A DNA stretch of 28,504 bases. Origin: a virus. The stretch is taken from IMG/VR virus record IMGVR_UViG_3300045806_000141, positions 1 to 28,504 of that record. The stretch is one strand, 5' to 3'. Positions 4,399 to 10,411 of this stretch are shown here, one piece after another. The position numbers and the translations under genes were made by a program. The notes below the pieces were generated by a model. The model was not told where the DNA came from. It saw nothing but the letters and a program-made list of their open reading frames with translations, and ran no database searches. Within the stretch, counting starts at the first letter, position 1, and each line of letters opens with the position of its first letter.

Positions 4399-4697
4399 GT
4401 GTGCAGGACGATTGGAAGGCGGCGCGCCGGGTCTTTATCCTGCGCCTGCTTATCAAGGTCGGCGGCGAGGGAAGCGCCGAGGTGATCTTCACTGGCCTTG
4501 AGCATGGCGGTTTCGCGCGTGACACGCCTGATACCTACCGCGCCGATCTCGAGCACCTGGTGCATTTCGGGTGTCTCACCGAGGAGTGGTATGAGGACGT
4601 CCGCGTCATGCGGCTGTCCGAGCGCGGCCGGATGGCTGCCGAGGGCCGCATTGAAGTCCAGGGCGTTGCGCAGTCGGCCTGGAAGGCGACGAGCTGA
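4395..4697 (+). CDS. Mu gp26-like small protein, winged-helix type (100 aa)
   Basis: A 100-aa protein that reads as a winged helix: helices DDWKAARRVFILRLLIKVGG and SAEVIFTGLEHGGF, then a recognition-like helix TYRADLEHLVHFGCL and a wing ending in VRVMRLSERGRMAAEG. Its position between DUF2730 and DUF3486 is that of Mu gp26. The start overlaps the preceding stop (ATGA), and its own stop shares a base with the next ATG (TGATG at 4695-4699). It may bind DNA during packaging or regulate late genes, but nothing in the sequence decides this. Confidence 0.7.
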   Translation: MSVQDDWKAARRVFILRLLIKVGGEGSAEVIFTGLEHGGFARDTPDTYRADLEHLVHFGCLTEEWYEDVRVMRLSERGRMAAEGRIEVQGVAQSAWKATS

Positions 4698-5257
4698 TGC
4701 CGCGCCCGAGCAAGATCGACCGTCTGCCTCTCGAGTTCCGCGACGCGATCGGCCGCCTGCGCGAGGACGGTCACACGCTCGATGAAATCCTGGTCTACCT
4801 GAAGAAGATGGGCCTGGACGCGGACGGCATGCCGAGCCGCTCCGGTCTGCATCGCCATGTCCAGGGGCTCGAGGAGCTCGCCGATCTGCTCCATACCTCC
4901 AGGTCGACAGCCGAAATTTTGACGCGCCGGCTGGGCGACGAACCGGAAGGCCGGCGGGCGCGGTTCAACATCGAAGTGCTCCAGGCGATCGTCACCAATT
5001 TGATGGCGGCGTCGGTCGCGGGCGACGGCGCGAAGTTCGATGCCAAGCAGGTGTCGTTCCTTTCCAAGGCGCTGAACGACCTGGCCAAGGCGCAGGCATC
5101 CGATCTCTCCACCACGTTGAAGCTGCGCGCGGAAGCCCGGAAGGAAATGGAGGCCAAGCTCGACCAGGTCGAGGCTGAGGTCGAGGACGGCGCCGCGCCA
5201 CTCACCCCGCTTGAAATGCTCGCCCGCATCCGCGCGCTGTATTCCGGTGAAGCATGA
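4697..5257 (+). CDS. DUF3486, putative small terminase subunit (Mu gp27-like)
   Basis: A 186-aa protein starting MPRPSKIDRLPLEFRDAIGRLREDGHT.., the signature opening of DUF3486, with a helix-turn-helix-like N-terminus (TLDEILVYLKKMG, then SRSGLHRHVQG) followed by long helices. In Mu-like phages this gene precedes the large terminase and is thought to be the small subunit, which recognises DNA for headful packaging. The 3' end overlaps the terminase ATG (ATGA at 5254-5257). The C-terminal acidic stretch (VEAEVEDGAAPL) is typical of a flexible region contacting the large subunit; that last point is inference. Confidence 0.85.
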   Translation: MPRPSKIDRLPLEFRDAIGRLREDGHTLDEILVYLKKMGLDADGMPSRSGLHRHVQGLEELADLLHTSRSTAEILTRRLGDEPEGRRARFNIEVLQAIVTNLMAASVAGDGAKFDAKQVSFLSKALNDLAKAQASDLSTTLKLRAEARKEMEAKLDQVEAEVEDGAAPLTPLEMLARIRALYSGEA

Positions 5258-6597
5258 AGGGGCTGCTCCATCCTTATGAGCAGCGCTGGATCGCCGATAA
5301 GTCGCGGTGGAAGATCGGCATGTTCGCCCGCCAGACCGGCAAGACCTTTACGACCACACTGGAGATTGTCGACGACTGCATGGAGGCCGAGGCGCGCGGC
5401 GGACGCACGCGCTGGGTGATCCTCAGCCGTGGCGAGCGCCAGGCGCTCGAGGCGATGAATGAGGGCGTCAAGCTGCACATGAAGGCTTATGGCTTGGCGT
5501 GCGAGCTGCTGGAATTCGATCTCGAACTCGACAAGGTCAAGTATCGCGCGGTCGAAGTCGTCTTCCCTGGCGGTTCACGCATTACCGCGCTGCCCGCCAA
5601 TCCGGCGACGGCGCGCGGCTACTCGGCCAACGTGTTCCTCGACGAGTTCGCCTTTCACGAGAACAGCCGCGAGATCTGGAAAGCGCTCTTCCCGGTGGTC
5701 TCCAAGCCGGGCCTGAAGCTGCGCATCACCAGCACGCCGAACGGCAAGGGCAATCGGTTCTTTGAGCTGTGGACGATCAAAAGCAACCGCTGGTCAAAGC
5801 ACACCGTCGATATCAACCAGGCGGTCGCCGACGGCCTCGAACGCGACATCGATGAGTTGCGCGAGGCGGCCGGCGACGAGGATCTGTGGCGGCAGGAATA
5901 TCTGCTGGAATTCCTCGACGAGGCGTCGAGCTGGCTGAGCTACGACCTCATCACGTCCTGCGAGCATCCCGACGCCGGCAAGCCGGAGAAGTATCAGGGC
6001 GGCCCCTGCTACATCGGCAACGACATCGCGCGCCGGAAAGACCTCTGGGTCGCCTGGGTGTGGGAGCTGGTCGGCGACGTGCTGTGGACGCGGGAAATCT
6101 CGGTGCTGCGCAACGCGAAATTCGCGGAGCAGGACGTCGAACTCGCGCGGCTGATGGATTTCTACAACGTCGTGCATGTCGTGATGGATCAGACCGGCAT
6201 GGGCGAAAAGCCGGTTGAAGACGCGCAGGAGCTTTACGGCAGCGACAAGGTGCACGGGATGCATCTTATCGGGCCGGTGCGCATGGCGGTCGCCCAATCG
6301 GCGAAGCAGCACTTCGAGGACCGGCACGTCCGCATTCCGGATGGCGACACCGAGCTGCGCGCCGACCTGCACAAGATCCGCAAGGTGTCGCCGGAGACCG
6401 GTGCGCCGCGCCTGATCGCCGACCGCGACGCCGCCGGCCACGCCGACCGCGCCTGGGCGAACTTCATGGGCATCGCTGGCGCCGACCCGAACATTATCGA
6501 GGACAGCATGGGGCTCTTCCAGTGGCTCAAAGAGCAGCTTGAGAAGCAGTCCGGCGGTGAAGAAGAAGTTGAAGAAGTAGAAAAGGTGGCTCGATGA
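5254..6597 (+). CDS. Terminase large subunit (Mu gp28-like)
   Basis: The 447-aa packaging motor. The N-terminal ATPase domain has a Walker A-type loop ARQTGKT (residues 25-31) and Walker B VFLDEFAF (127-134, Asp130-Glu131), with a coupling-type STPNGKG motif after it. The C-terminal RNase H-like nuclease has the expected acidic residues: Asp257 in YIGNDIARRKD, Asp312 in VVMDQTGMG, and Asp residues around 390-397 in DRDAAGHADRAWA. It cuts and pumps DNA into the prohead. It overlaps both neighbours by 4 bases, small terminase upstream and portal downstream. A Glu/Val-rich C-terminus (about 12 residues) is low complexity. Length is close to that of Mu-type terminases. Confidence 0.93.
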   Translation: MKGLLHPYEQRWIADKSRWKIGMFARQTGKTFTTTLEIVDDCMEAEARGGRTRWVILSRGERQALEAMNEGVKLHMKAYGLACELLEFDLELDKVKYRAVEVVFPGGSRITALPANPATARGYSANVFLDEFAFHENSREIWKALFPVVSKPGLKLRITSTPNGKGNRFFELWTIKSNRWSKHTVDINQAVADGLERDIDELREAAGDEDLWRQEYLLEFLDEASSWLSYDLITSCEHPDAGKPEKYQGGPCYIGNDIARRKDLWVAWVWELVGDVLWTREISVLRNAKFAEQDVELARLMDFYNVVHVVMDQTGMGEKPVEDAQELYGSDKVHGMHLIGPVRMAVAQSAKQHFEDRHVRIPDGDTELRADLHKIRKVSPETGAPRLIADRDAAGHADRAWANFMGIAGADPNIIEDSMGLFQWLKEQLEKQSGGEEEVEEVEKVAR

Positions 6598-9275
6598 GCG
6601 ACAACCAGGTTCCACCGTCGCTATTCTCGCGCACCGTCACGGCGGTCAAATACGCCATCACGGGCAAGCCGACCTGGTTCGGTCCCGGCCAGCCGATGGC
6701 GCCCCAGGCGCAGGAAGCCGCCGGGCGCACCTGGGACTATGCGCCGTCGATCAACCTGCAGCAGGCGCCGCGCCTCGACGAGGAAATCTCGGCCGACGAG
6801 CTGCGCGCGCTGGCGACGAATTGCGACGTGATGGCGTTGGTGATCGGAACGCGGAAGGATCAACTCACCGGCCTCACCTGGTCTTTCCAGATGAAGGACA
6901 AGACCGCCCGTAAGACCGTCGACCCGCGCATCAAGATGCTCACCGAGTTCTTTGAAATGCCGGATCGCGAGCATTCGTGGGACCAATGGATATCGGCGAT
7001 CCTGGATGACTTGCTGGTGATCGACGCGCCGACCGTCTACCCGCGCCGGACCCGCGATGGCGGGATTTACGGCTTCGATTATGTCGACGGGGCGACCATT
7101 GTCCGGAAGTTCGACGAGTTCGGCCGGACGCCGATGGCGCCGCAGCCGGCTTATCAGCAGCGCCTGCATGGGCTGGCAGCCGTCGACTATGCCGTCAACG
7201 AGCTGATCTACATGCCGCGCACCCCGCGCACCTATAAGGCGTATGGCCTTTCGCCGGTTCAGATGGTGGCCTGGACCGCCAACATCGCGCTGCGCCGGCA
7301 GTCCTTCCAGCTCGACTTTTACACCTCGGGTTCGATGCCGGACGCCGTCGTCGGCCTGCCCGATAGCTGGTCGTCGTCGAAGGTCGAGGATTACGACAGG
7401 CGCTTCAATCAACTGCTTTCCGGCGATGGTTCGCAGCGCCGCAAGGTGAAGTTCATGCACGCCAGTGCGGCGTCGTCGTTCAAGCAGCTCAAGGAAGCGG
7501 TTCTGAAGGACGAGTTCGACGAATGGTTGGCAAGGGTCGTTTGTTATGCCTTCTCGGTCTCTCCGCAGGCGTTCGTGAAGGAGACCAACCGGGGCACCGG
7601 CGAGACCGCGCAGGCGATGGCCAACGCGGAAGGGCTCGCGCCGCTGCGGCGTTGGGTGAAGTCCTTCATCAATCGCTGCATATTGGTCGGCTGGGGGTGG
7701 ACCGACATCGAATTCGCCTGGCACGAGGAAGAGGAGACCAACCCGCAGGAGCAGGCGGTCACCTCGACGACTTACATGAAGAACGGCGTGCTCCTGATCA
7801 ACGAAGTCCGCGCCGACATCGGTCGCGAGCCGATCCCTGGCGGCGATACCCCGCTGATCTTCACGCCGACCGGTGCGGTGCCGCTATCGGTCGCCATCGA
7901 ACCGCCGAAGCCAGAACCCGCGCCGCAGATCGGACACAACGGCGGCCCGACGATGGACGGCAAGCAGGGCACCGAGGCGGACCAGGAGGAGCAGCTCCTG
8001 ACCAAGGCCGCGAAAGGTGAAGGGCGGCTGCAGGCGATCTGGCAAGTCTTCCTCGCTCACGAGGGCGCGCGGGCCGCGAAGGCGCTTTCGCATCTCGCTC
8101 CGACAGCCGTCGAAGTGGCCAAGGCGGCCGGCGACGATGCCGCGTCAGACCCCACTGACCCGACCGCCGCCGCCACGCCGCCGGCATCGGACGATGTGAT
8201 CGACGCGTCGATCGACCAGACCATCCGCTCAATGGCATGGCCAGTCGTGCAGTCCGGCACCGTGCAGATGCTCGAGGAGGCGGCGATCGGCGGCGTCTCG
8301 GCCGGCGAGGCGACACTCGGCCAGGTCATCGGCATCAGCGTCGCCAGCAAGCCGGCCAGCGGCGGCGGCATGTCGCAGATCATGTTGGATGCAACGAGGC
8401 TGGCCAACCCGCGCGCCGTCGCAGCCGCGCAGGCGCAGGCCGCCGAACTGGTGAGCGGCGTGGAGCAGACCACGCGGGACAATCTCCGCCGACTGGTCGT
8501 CCAGGCGCAGGCCGAGGGTTGGAGCACCAAGCGCCTCGCCGACGCTATCGCCTCCGATTACACCTTCAGCGCCGACCGCGCCTGGGTGATCGCCCGCACC
8601 GAACTGGCCCGGTCGTCGACCGCCGGCAACATTGAGGGCTGGCGTCAGGCCGCCAAGCTCGGCGTGAATATCCAGAAGCGCGTGATCCTCGGTCAGAATG
8701 AGAACCACTGCCTGGTCTGCACTGGCGCTGTCCTGGAGGGCGCGATCCCGCTCGACGATAGCTGGGCGGCAGGCTTCCAGACGCCGTTTCATCCGAGCTG
8801 CTACTGCACCTTGACGCCGGTTGTCGGCGGGAGCGTCTCGAAAGCGTTCAGTCCGGATCAGCCGCGTGGCCCCAACGGAAAGTGGGTGGCCGGCGGAGCC
8901 GTCGCGGATGTCGACGGTGAAATTCAGCGTGGACGCAAGGCGATCTCCGAAGCGATGCAGGGGAAGACCAATCGCGTCAACGCGATGCAGTCCGAGGTCG
9001 GCCCGGTGTCATTCCTATGGGGGCACACCAACGGCACGGCACGCGACAAGGGCGGCTTTGGTTTGGCCCATATCATCAACAAGCGATCGCATGAGGGGGT
9101 TGATGGAACTGCCCTCATCAACCGCATTCCCGAGGCTATCGCGAAGGGCCAGGGACACCAGGACCATCTCGGCAGTTGGATCATCGAGCACAACGGCGAC
9201 CGACTGGTGCTTGAGAAAGGCGGCAACGGCACGCCAGCGCCTTGGGTGCTGACCGCCTACACGCCGAAGAAGTGA
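6594..9275 (+). CDS. Portal (DUF935)-Mu F-PBECR nuclease fusion protein
   Basis: A single 893-aa frame holding what Mu encodes as separate genes (gp29, gp30), plus a third domain. Residues 1 to about 480 are a DUF935 portal (for example NELIYMPRTPRTYKAYGLSPVQM and FVKETNRGTGETAQA), the ring through which DNA passes. About 600-742 is a Mu F head-morphogenesis domain: RTELARSS (about 669-676), CLVC, then FHPSCYC. After a linker, FSPDQPRGPNGKWV (about 751-764), the last 130 residues carry WGHTNG, GFGLAHIINKR and a C-terminal WVLTAY, the layout of phage PBECR (Barnase-EndoU-ColicinE5/D-RelE) nucleases often attached to MuF proteins. MuF-linked toxins are thought to be packed in the head and injected. 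No internal start with a good ribosome site is seen. Portal and MuF calls are firm; the nuclease call is by pattern. Confidence 0.88.
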   Translation: MSDNQVPPSLFSRTVTAVKYAITGKPTWFGPGQPMAPQAQEAAGRTWDYAPSINLQQAPRLDEEISADELRALATNCDVMALVIGTRKDQLTGLTWSFQMKDKTARKTVDPRIKMLTEFFEMPDREHSWDQWISAILDDLLVIDAPTVYPRRTRDGGIYGFDYVDGATIVRKFDEFGRTPMAPQPAYQQRLHGLAAVDYAVNELIYMPRTPRTYKAYGLSPVQMVAWTANIALRRQSFQLDFYTSGSMPDAVVGLPDSWSSSKVEDYDRRFNQLLSGDGSQRRKVKFMHASAASSFKQLKEAVLKDEFDEWLARVVCYAFSVSPQAFVKETNRGTGETAQAMANAEGLAPLRRWVKSFINRCILVGWGWTDIEFAWHEEEETNPQEQAVTSTTYMKNGVLLINEVRADIGREPIPGGDTPLIFTPTGAVPLSVAIEPPKPEPAPQIGHNGGPTMDGKQGTEADQEEQLLTKAAKGEGRLQAIWQVFLAHEGARAAKALSHLAPTAVEVAKAAGDDAASDPTDPTAAATPPASDDVIDASIDQTIRSMAWPVVQSGTVQMLEEAAIGGVSAGEATLGQVIGISVASKPASGGGMSQIMLDATRLANPRAVAAAQAQAAELVSGVEQTTRDNLRRLVVQAQAEGWSTKRLADAIASDYTFSADRAWVIARTELARSSTAGNIEGWRQAAKLGVNIQKRVILGQNENHCLVCTGAVLEGAIPLDDSWAAGFQTPFHPSCYCTLTPVVGGSVSKAFSPDQPRGPNGKWVAGGAVADVDGEIQRGRKAISEAMQGKTNRVNAMQSEVGPVSFLWGHTNGTARDKGGFGLAHIINKRSHEGVDGTALINRIPEAIAKGQGHQDHLGSWIIEHNGDRLVLEKGGNGTPAPWVLTAYTPKK

Positions 9276-9426: not shown

Positions 9427-9741
9427 ATGAGACCGCTTCCCGAGCAAACCACCCGGTCGATGATGCCCGGCTTCGAACGCAATTCAGCGCAGCAGATGCA
9501 GCCGAGCGAGATGCTCCGCTTCACGATGATGCAGAAGGCGCTCCGCCGTCTCCAACTGCCGTTCTACACGGCCGATGCCCGGTTCATCACCGAGAACGCG
9601 AACGTCCATCCGGCGCTGCTTAGCGAGCGCCAGGCAGCCAATTTCAACCGCCTGGGATGGAAGCACCGCCAGCGCCTGCCGCATGGCGTGGCGCCGGCTT
9701 CCGATCCGGGCAATGGAGATATCGACCATGGCGATCACTGA
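9427..9741 (+). CDS. Hypothetical protein (104 aa)
   Basis: ATG 9427 follows AAGGGGG by a suitable distance, and the frame overlaps the endolysin start by 14 bases, which supports it being translated. The product is basic and Met/Gln-rich in its first third (SAQQMQPSEMLRFTMMQKALRRLQ), then YTADARFITENANVHPALLSERQAANFNRLGWKHR. No membrane segment, signal peptide or catalytic motif is visible and I recognise no family. Placement directly before the endolysin makes a lysis-related or head-related role equally possible. The gene is separated from the portal fusion by a 151-base gap. Confidence 0.6.
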   Translation: MRPLPEQTTRSMMPGFERNSAQQMQPSEMLRFTMMQKALRRLQLPFYTADARFITENANVHPALLSERQAANFNRLGWKHRQRLPHGVAPASDPGNGDIDHGDH

Positions 9742-10411
9742 CGTAGTCCGCCTCGATCGCATCTATGGCGCGATCCAGCGGCACGAGGTCGGAGCCGATC
9801 CAACCAGCCCGGCTTCCTGGTCGGGCAAGCAGGTCGGCCTGGGAACCTTCCTGTGCGACAACGGCGGCCTGTCGATGGATCAGGCTGACAGCGGCAACTG
9901 GACCGGCGGTCTGATCGGCAAGGGCGTGCTGGGCGGGACGCGCTGGGGCTTCAGCAGCGCCGCCTATGCGGACGACCTTGGGTATCTGCCAGCGGAGTTG
10001 CGGGCGACCTATCCAGCCATGGTGAAAGACCTCACGCTCGACCAGGGCAAGCAGCTCTTCCACTATGCCTATATGCTGCGCCTGCGCGCCTATGAGATGC
10101 CGGCTGGCCTCGCGTTGCTGGTCGCGGACAGCGGCTTCAACAATGGCGTCAAAGGCGGAAGCCGATGGCTGCAGGAGATCGTCGGCGTCAACGAAGATGG
10201 TGCGATCGGCGACACCACTCTGAAATCCGTGCGGACCCATATTGCCGTGGCCGGCGAGGATGAAATCGCGGCGAGCTTCCATGCCCTGCGCATCAATGCG
10301 ATGGCCCGCATGACGAGCTGGTCGGTCGACGGCGGCGGCTGGTCGAAGCGCCTGGCGCTGCTGCCATTCCAGGCGACGGCGCTGGCCGCGTTGGATCGAG
10401 CCGCCGTCTGA
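9728..10411 (+). CDS. Endolysin, GH108 N-acetylmuramidase
   Basis: A 227-aa protein with the glycoside hydrolase family 108 pattern: a catalytic Glu near the N-terminus (RHEVG, Glu20, in place of the usual HEGG), then SGNWTGGLIGKGVLGGTRWGFSSAAY, which matches the family's GNWTGG..G.G.L.GT..GIS region. The C-terminal half has the companion peptidoglycan-binding region: ALLVADSGFNNGVKGGSRWLQEIVGVNEDGAIGDTTL. It cleaves the glycan strands of murein at lysis. There is no signal peptide, so a holin is needed for release. It starts inside the previous gene and is the last gene of the first late block; in Mu the endolysin is instead at the front of the block. Confidence 0.88.
   Translation: MAITDVVRLDRIYGAIQRHEVGADPTSPASWSGKQVGLGTFLCDNGGLSMDQADSGNWTGGLIGKGVLGGTRWGFSSAAYADDLGYLPAELRATYPAMVKDLTLDQGKQLFHYAYMLRLRAYEMPAGLALLVADSGFNNGVKGGSRWLQEIVGVNEDGAIGDTTLKSVRTHIAVAGEDEIAASFHALRINAMARMTSWSVDGGGWSKRLALLPFQATALAALDRAAV

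Follow-up and report, generated by a model that had tools for sequence, protein, structure and literature searches.

A portal-MuF head protein with a predicted PBECR1 RNase tail behind a recurring linker motif in a viral contig

Domain organisation of the fusion gene

We analysed a viral DNA stretch of 28,504 nucleotides (IMG/VR record IMGVR_UViG_3300045806_000141, positions 1 to 28,504; hereafter the window), in which one gene encodes a portal domain, a MuF domain and, behind a short linker, a predicted RNase domain of the PBECR1 family. The gene and its parts are listed below, with the E-values of the profile matches in brackets.

6594..9275, + strand: portal-MuF-PBECR1 fusion gene, 893 aa, intact open frame; same architecture in the relatives L003, L081, L083 and L207
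6933..7814, + strand: portal domain, aa 114-407 (PF04860, 5.3e-16)
8481..8813, + strand: MuF domain, aa 630-740, last residues HPSCYC (PF04233, 2.3e-4; also phrog_2662 and phrog_2468)
8841..8897, + strand: linker KAFSPDQPRGPNGKWVAGG, aa 750-768, one case of a carrier-cargo junction motif
8988..9269, + strand: predicted PBECR1 RNase domain, aa 799-892 (PF18809, 8.2e-10)
9069-9071, + strand: predicted catalytic H826 (alignment of PBECR1 domains)
9252-9254, + strand: predicted catalytic T887 (alignment of PBECR1 domains)

An earlier reading of the letters (the original prediction) had placed portal, MuF and nuclease in a single 893-aa frame of the head-packaging module. This was borne out by the intact open reading frame (ORF), by the Pfam and PHROGs domains, by the relatives, and by the position of the gene directly after those for the small and large terminase subunits. 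The phrog_2662 profile ('portal protein', 717 positions) spanned aa 19-749 at 2e-94, and phrog_2468 (head morphogenesis) matched the MuF part at 3.5e-14; the PF04233 score of the MuF domain was under the Pfam cut-off. Since phrog_2662 covers portal and MuF as one family, a portal-MuF single chain is an ordinary phage protein. The tail scored 39.6 bits on PF18809 (PBECR1), for which the cut-off is 27.6. Another viral contig from IMG/VR (L002) has a gene 100% identical to the fusion gene, and two independent IMG/VR relatives of full length (L003 and L004; 51% identity) carry the three parts in one frame. Thus, the fusion is not an assembly join.

Predicted fold and catalytic residues of the nuclease tail

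The tail (aa 770-893) was modelled with AlphaFold from an alignment of six sequences. The model, with a predicted local distance difference test (pLDDT) score of 82.8, consists of helices followed by antiparallel strands. In the VIA-align comparison BrnT (Z 6.0) and CdiA-CT (Z 5.7 and 5.4) led the rows, RelE, YoeB, ParE and HigB were also present, and nearly all of the top rows were BECR toxins; the ten best Foldseek matches were all RelE/ParE-type toxins (best E 0.085). The middling Z by itself was unpersuasive, and we accepted a BECR-type fold on the basis of the uniform VIA-align rows together with the Pfam match. The model supports, with moderate strength, a BECR fold of the PBECR1 family for the tail.

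In an alignment of nine PBECR1 domains, the helix histidine occurred in seven, including the window's (H826) and two from Helicobacter phages, and the C-terminal threonine or serine (T887 in the window) was kept in all nine. H826 and T887 align with the Helicobacter phage domains, i.e. both predicted catalytic positions are retained. The original prediction had called the tail a PBECR-type nuclease and had named PBECR profiles as the check; the PF18809 match above cut-off, the BECR-like predicted fold with BECR toxins in the top structural rows, and the retained H826 and T887 all agree with it. No plasmid relatives of the tail were found, a sequence-profile search of the PDB gave no relatives, and the PADLOC defence-system models gave no match.

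Patchy occurrence of the nuclease among relatives

A wider search gave 65 loci, mostly portal-MuF or portal matches that lacked a PBECR-like tail, and many portal-MuF members of phrog_2662 stop at the MuF domain, without cargo. Searching with the tail recovered three further portal-MuF-PBECR1 proteins (L081, L082 and L083), as well as L084, in which PBECR1 is found on a DUF2213 protein; the matches in isolated phages were Helicobacter phage proteins, a type of protein for which PBECR domains have been described. The genome search added a 949-aa portal-MuF-PBECR1 protein (L207/L235), encoded within a head-to-tail phage gene module of a 259-kb bacterial contig, and a portal-MuF gene without cargo (L206). 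The bins that contain the two cargo-free relatives from genome_contigs carry the labels Rhodospirillales and Burkholderiales.

A tree was built from 16 portal-MuF bodies. In it, the nuclease-bearing window and L003 clustered with the nuclease-free L005 and L075 at 100/100 support, and the well-supported branches require at least two gains or losses of the nuclease. In the 1255-aa portal-MuF protein of L031 (4965-8732), a C-terminal pair of metallopeptidase-like modules replaces the nuclease, and the identical linker KYSDDQERDEQGRWTDGGGGE precedes each of the two. Given this replacement and the patchy nuclease within a supported clade, the C-terminal cargo on the portal-MuF body is exchangeable and dispensable. 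The same effector also occurs on another carrier: in L084 (5117-7252) PBECR1 (6.9e-13) lies on the N-terminal side of the DUF2213 protein, and the short sequence in front of it, RGTHVPMNEEGNLSGHVGSKI, differs from the linker and may be an alternative leader.

The linker and its motif in viral proteins

The linker of the fusion, KAFSPDQPRGPNGKW, fits the motif [YF][SND]PDQPRDxxG[RK]W[TS]xGG. The original prediction was right in placing a linker before the nuclease and too short in its extent, as the linker is longer than QPRGPNGKW; it is present in a single copy in the window. The region around it (aa 746-770) had pLDDT below 50 and is predicted to be disordered; the full-length model from which this was taken was of low confidence (pLDDT 63.8) and was used solely for this purpose. 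Among relatives chosen by similarity to the portal-MuF body or to the tail, the linker is present in the cargo-bearing window, L003, L081, L083, L207 and L031 (twice), and is degenerate (GNPHHDARGRFTS) in cargo-bearing L082; it is absent from the cargo-free relatives of the 16-body tree. The cargo-free portal-MuF protein of L206 (1495-3948) ends in AKSADQPPVRAA and a short unrelated tail, and AKSADQPPVRAA is possibly a decayed linker that remained after cargo loss. Visual inspection of the three forward frames behind this portal gene for a frameshifted nuclease remnant showed none, only AKSADQPPVRAA.

To survey the motif, a DNA pattern for DQPRDxxGxW was run against viral_contigs, with the reversed pattern as a control. 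The pattern matched at least 120 stretches and the reversed one 2; in 299 bacterial genomes there were 2 matches versus 0. These counts ruled out chance. The loci listed from the survey gave 87 occurrences in 82 distinct viral contexts (a lower bound); as the sample was picked by the motif itself, the counts that follow describe it and do not give rates. Positions left free by the pattern were strongly conserved: Y/F at -3 and S/D/N at -2 (71 of the 82 contexts each), and T/S at +10 (64/82), followed by glycines. For D, Q, P, R and G of the motif, the choice among synonymous codons matches each ORF's own usage, and no conservation was seen at the DNA level, so that a DNA recombination site was rejected. 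The motif is conserved as protein and not as codons.

Upstream of the motif, 49 segments were searched, with matches to phrog_2662 portal (21/49), PF04860 (14/49) and MuF (8/49); the remaining matches were to Phage_portal_3, Portal_Mu and prohead proteases. Most of the 66 downstream segments matched no domain. The downstream matches included ADP-ribosyltransferase exoenzyme (5), zeta toxin (4), MuF (4), lethal-factor-type metallopeptidase (3), Tox-REase-5 (2) and papain-fold glutamine deamidase (2), with single matches that include RNase A-like CdiA-CT, pesticin and 2'-5' RNA ligase. Of the 67 ORFs whose 5' end was complete, 16 have the motif within their first 40 residues, and some of the ORFs led by it immediately follow a terminase gene. 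A bare flexible linker would be unneeded at an N-terminus, and the motif at protein starts therefore favours a recognised signal. We infer from these sequences that the linker may be a cargo signal that serves packaging, or a processing site at which the head protease cuts. More broadly, and only tentatively, the motif could be a widespread protein-level mark of the start of effector cargo of any kind on any tailed-phage carrier, N-terminal on separate proteins as well, which would act as a capsid-cargo or processing signal in a role like that of the T4 capsid targeting sequence; the carriers would then comprise several portal families, MuF and prohead-protease-like proteins. A literature search for the motif retrieved no description, with thin coverage of subscription journals, where it may be described.

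We consider the linker of greater importance than the fusion. Should it be a cargo signal, candidates for packaged effectors in all phages could be listed by a simple pattern search, and the loading and release of head-bound effectors could be tested by altering one short sequence.

Two loci with the motif had further features. In the bacterial-genome locus L242 (1483-3033) DQPRD lies at residue 6. By eye, a stretch that contains GFGRRHIEFRHG ... GTAYG resembles PBECR, without a Pfam match, and the C-terminal part looks like DUF2213; the protein also has a NUDIX domain. On the minus strand of L089 (ORF 428-2350 of the reverse complement), the DQPRD motif is accompanied by repeats of GGPGSGNxGHxGRPGQVGGSS, which may be a further junction motif of phage proteins.

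The gene at 9427 and the question of immunity

The 104-aa ORF reported behind the fusion gene, and considered there the nearest candidate for an immunity gene, is present:

9427..9741, + strand: 104-aa gene, once proposed as immunity gene; overlaps the lysozyme start at 9728

Homologues were found in L005 (E 1e-11) and L003 (E 3e-6), and tblastn detected kin of these two in L075, L076, L206 and L235. The family adjoins portal-MuF genes without the nuclease (L005, L075, L076, L206) and also genes with it (L003, L207/L235); its position in L206 and L235 is upstream of the portal gene. No homologue was found in nuclease-bearing L081, L082 and L083, although similarity within the family is low (26-29% between the window copy and L003 or L005) and a few members may be missed; in L081 and L082 there is no convincing ORF between the fusion gene and the next head gene. 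On this comparative evidence the family fails to track the nuclease, and we rejected its role in immunity. The 9427 gene seems more likely to belong to the head or lysis module.

Relation to known systems

Iyer et al. (2017) described, in their article on polyvalent proteins, fusions to MuF and portal domains as the simplest PBECR architectures, and packaging and injection were predicted for proteins that combine PBECR, MuF and portal domains (PMC5512222). These are the domains of the window fusion, so the three-part architecture is not new and is a further example of a published prediction; unlike our analysis, the main text of that article makes no mention of a linker (PMC5512222). The fusion has the carrier, the effector and the several domains of a polyvalent protein, with packaging predicted. 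It adds well-resolved cases to the prediction of phage RNases on portal/MuF head proteins, and presents the nuclease as a swappable cargo that the protein can do without and that has no immunity gene of its own.

Mu gp30 is also encoded in the head module and also has MuF followed by PBECR; it differs from the window protein in being apart from the portal and in its PBECR, reported as inactive. The contrast with Mu drawn in the original prediction is thus correct for the separate portal and gp30, whereas gp30 is not free of a nuclease-type domain, its C-terminus being a degenerate, inactive PBECR according to the same article (PMC5512222). Portal and MuF share one chain, as here, in the phrog_2662 family and in Arthrobacter phage Sonali gp3 ('portal and MuF-like fusion protein'); gp3 is annotated as a two-part fusion only, to which the window protein adds the nuclease. 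MuF polymorphic toxins (Jamet et al. 2017, PMC5576092; Bxa, PMC11699363) likewise carry an effector C-terminal on a MuF head protein, but the window fusion is also joined to a portal and has no consistent immunity gene. Its layout, MuF and then a toxin-like domain, is that of these toxins, with PF04233 alone below cut-off. Such toxins are encoded by temperate phages; the relative L207/L235 lies in the 259-kb bacterial contig, and the window itself is a 28.5-kb virus record. They also have an adjacent cognate immunity gene, whereas the 9427 family does not track the nuclease, and we therefore did not class the fusion among them; a role as a delivered effector is still compatible with this.

Proposed role and alternative explanations

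We consider it fairly probable that the gene encodes a portal-MuF head protein whose C-terminus bears an optional PBECR1 RNase, predicted to be metal-independent, which is attached via the recurring cargo linker and delivered with the DNA. The portal ring would be assembled at a late stage of infection, MuF and PBECR facing the capsid interior. The RNase would exit with the DNA, either freed at the linker or within a larger ejected piece, and would cut mRNA, tRNA or guide RNA of the newly infected cell, which would favour the phage or blunt host defence. Up to twelve nuclease copies at the vertex, their ejection with the DNA and their action on host RNA, as suggested in the original prediction, would be part of such a mechanism. 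Several points weigh against it. In absolute terms the fold matches scored weakly (best Z 6.0; best Foldseek E 0.085), L082 and L083 carry lysine at the helix-histidine position of the nine-domain alignment, some PBECR1 members may be inactive or may use a histidine five residues further on, and the portal may bind its cargo too tightly for ejection.

The missing histidine of L082 and L083 and the inactive PBECR described in Mu gp30 would fit a non-catalytic RNA- or DNA-binding head domain that aids assembly or packaging, as proposed for gp30; this is unlikely here, because both predicted catalytic residues are present in the window and because close relatives have otherwise intact portal-MuF proteins without PBECR, so that the domain is dispensable. 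Still less probable, in our opinion, is a MuF-type polymorphic toxin, whose nuclease would arm lysogens against competitors with the neighbouring small gene as immunity. Bxa does have two immunity genes beside it (PMC11699363), and L207/L235 belongs to a contig of a bacterial genome, within a module of head-to-tail phage genes; however, the 9427 family stands beside nuclease-free portal-MuF genes (L005, L075, L076, L206), was not found in nuclease-bearing L081-L083, of which L081 and L082 have no convincing ORF between the fusion and the next head gene, and in L235 lies upstream of the portal gene. We also doubt strongly that the RNase acts late in the producing cell or inside the capsid, e.g. 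by degrading RNA trapped at packaging, and is never injected. Its covalent attachment to the portal and its presumed orientation toward the capsid interior, as judged from known portal proteins, would suit such a function, but the linker also carries ADP-ribosyltransferases, zeta toxins and peptidases, which are more sensible as delivered effectors.

Neighbouring genes

The genes on both sides of the fusion gene were assigned as follows.

4697..5257, + strand: Mu gp27-like small terminase (PF11985, 4.8e-31)
5254..6597, + strand: terminase large subunit (PF03237, 2.5e-25)
9728..10411, + strand: GH108-type lysozyme (PF05838, 1.2e-6; PF09374, 9.3e-6; phrog_315 endolysin, 1.8e-20)

The ATG of the lysozyme gene was placed at 9728 by inspection, inside a larger ORF (9575-10411). 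The gene lies within the head module, with the portal on one side and protease and capsid genes on the other, and a similar lysozyme-like gene occupies the equivalent place in L003, L005 and L075.
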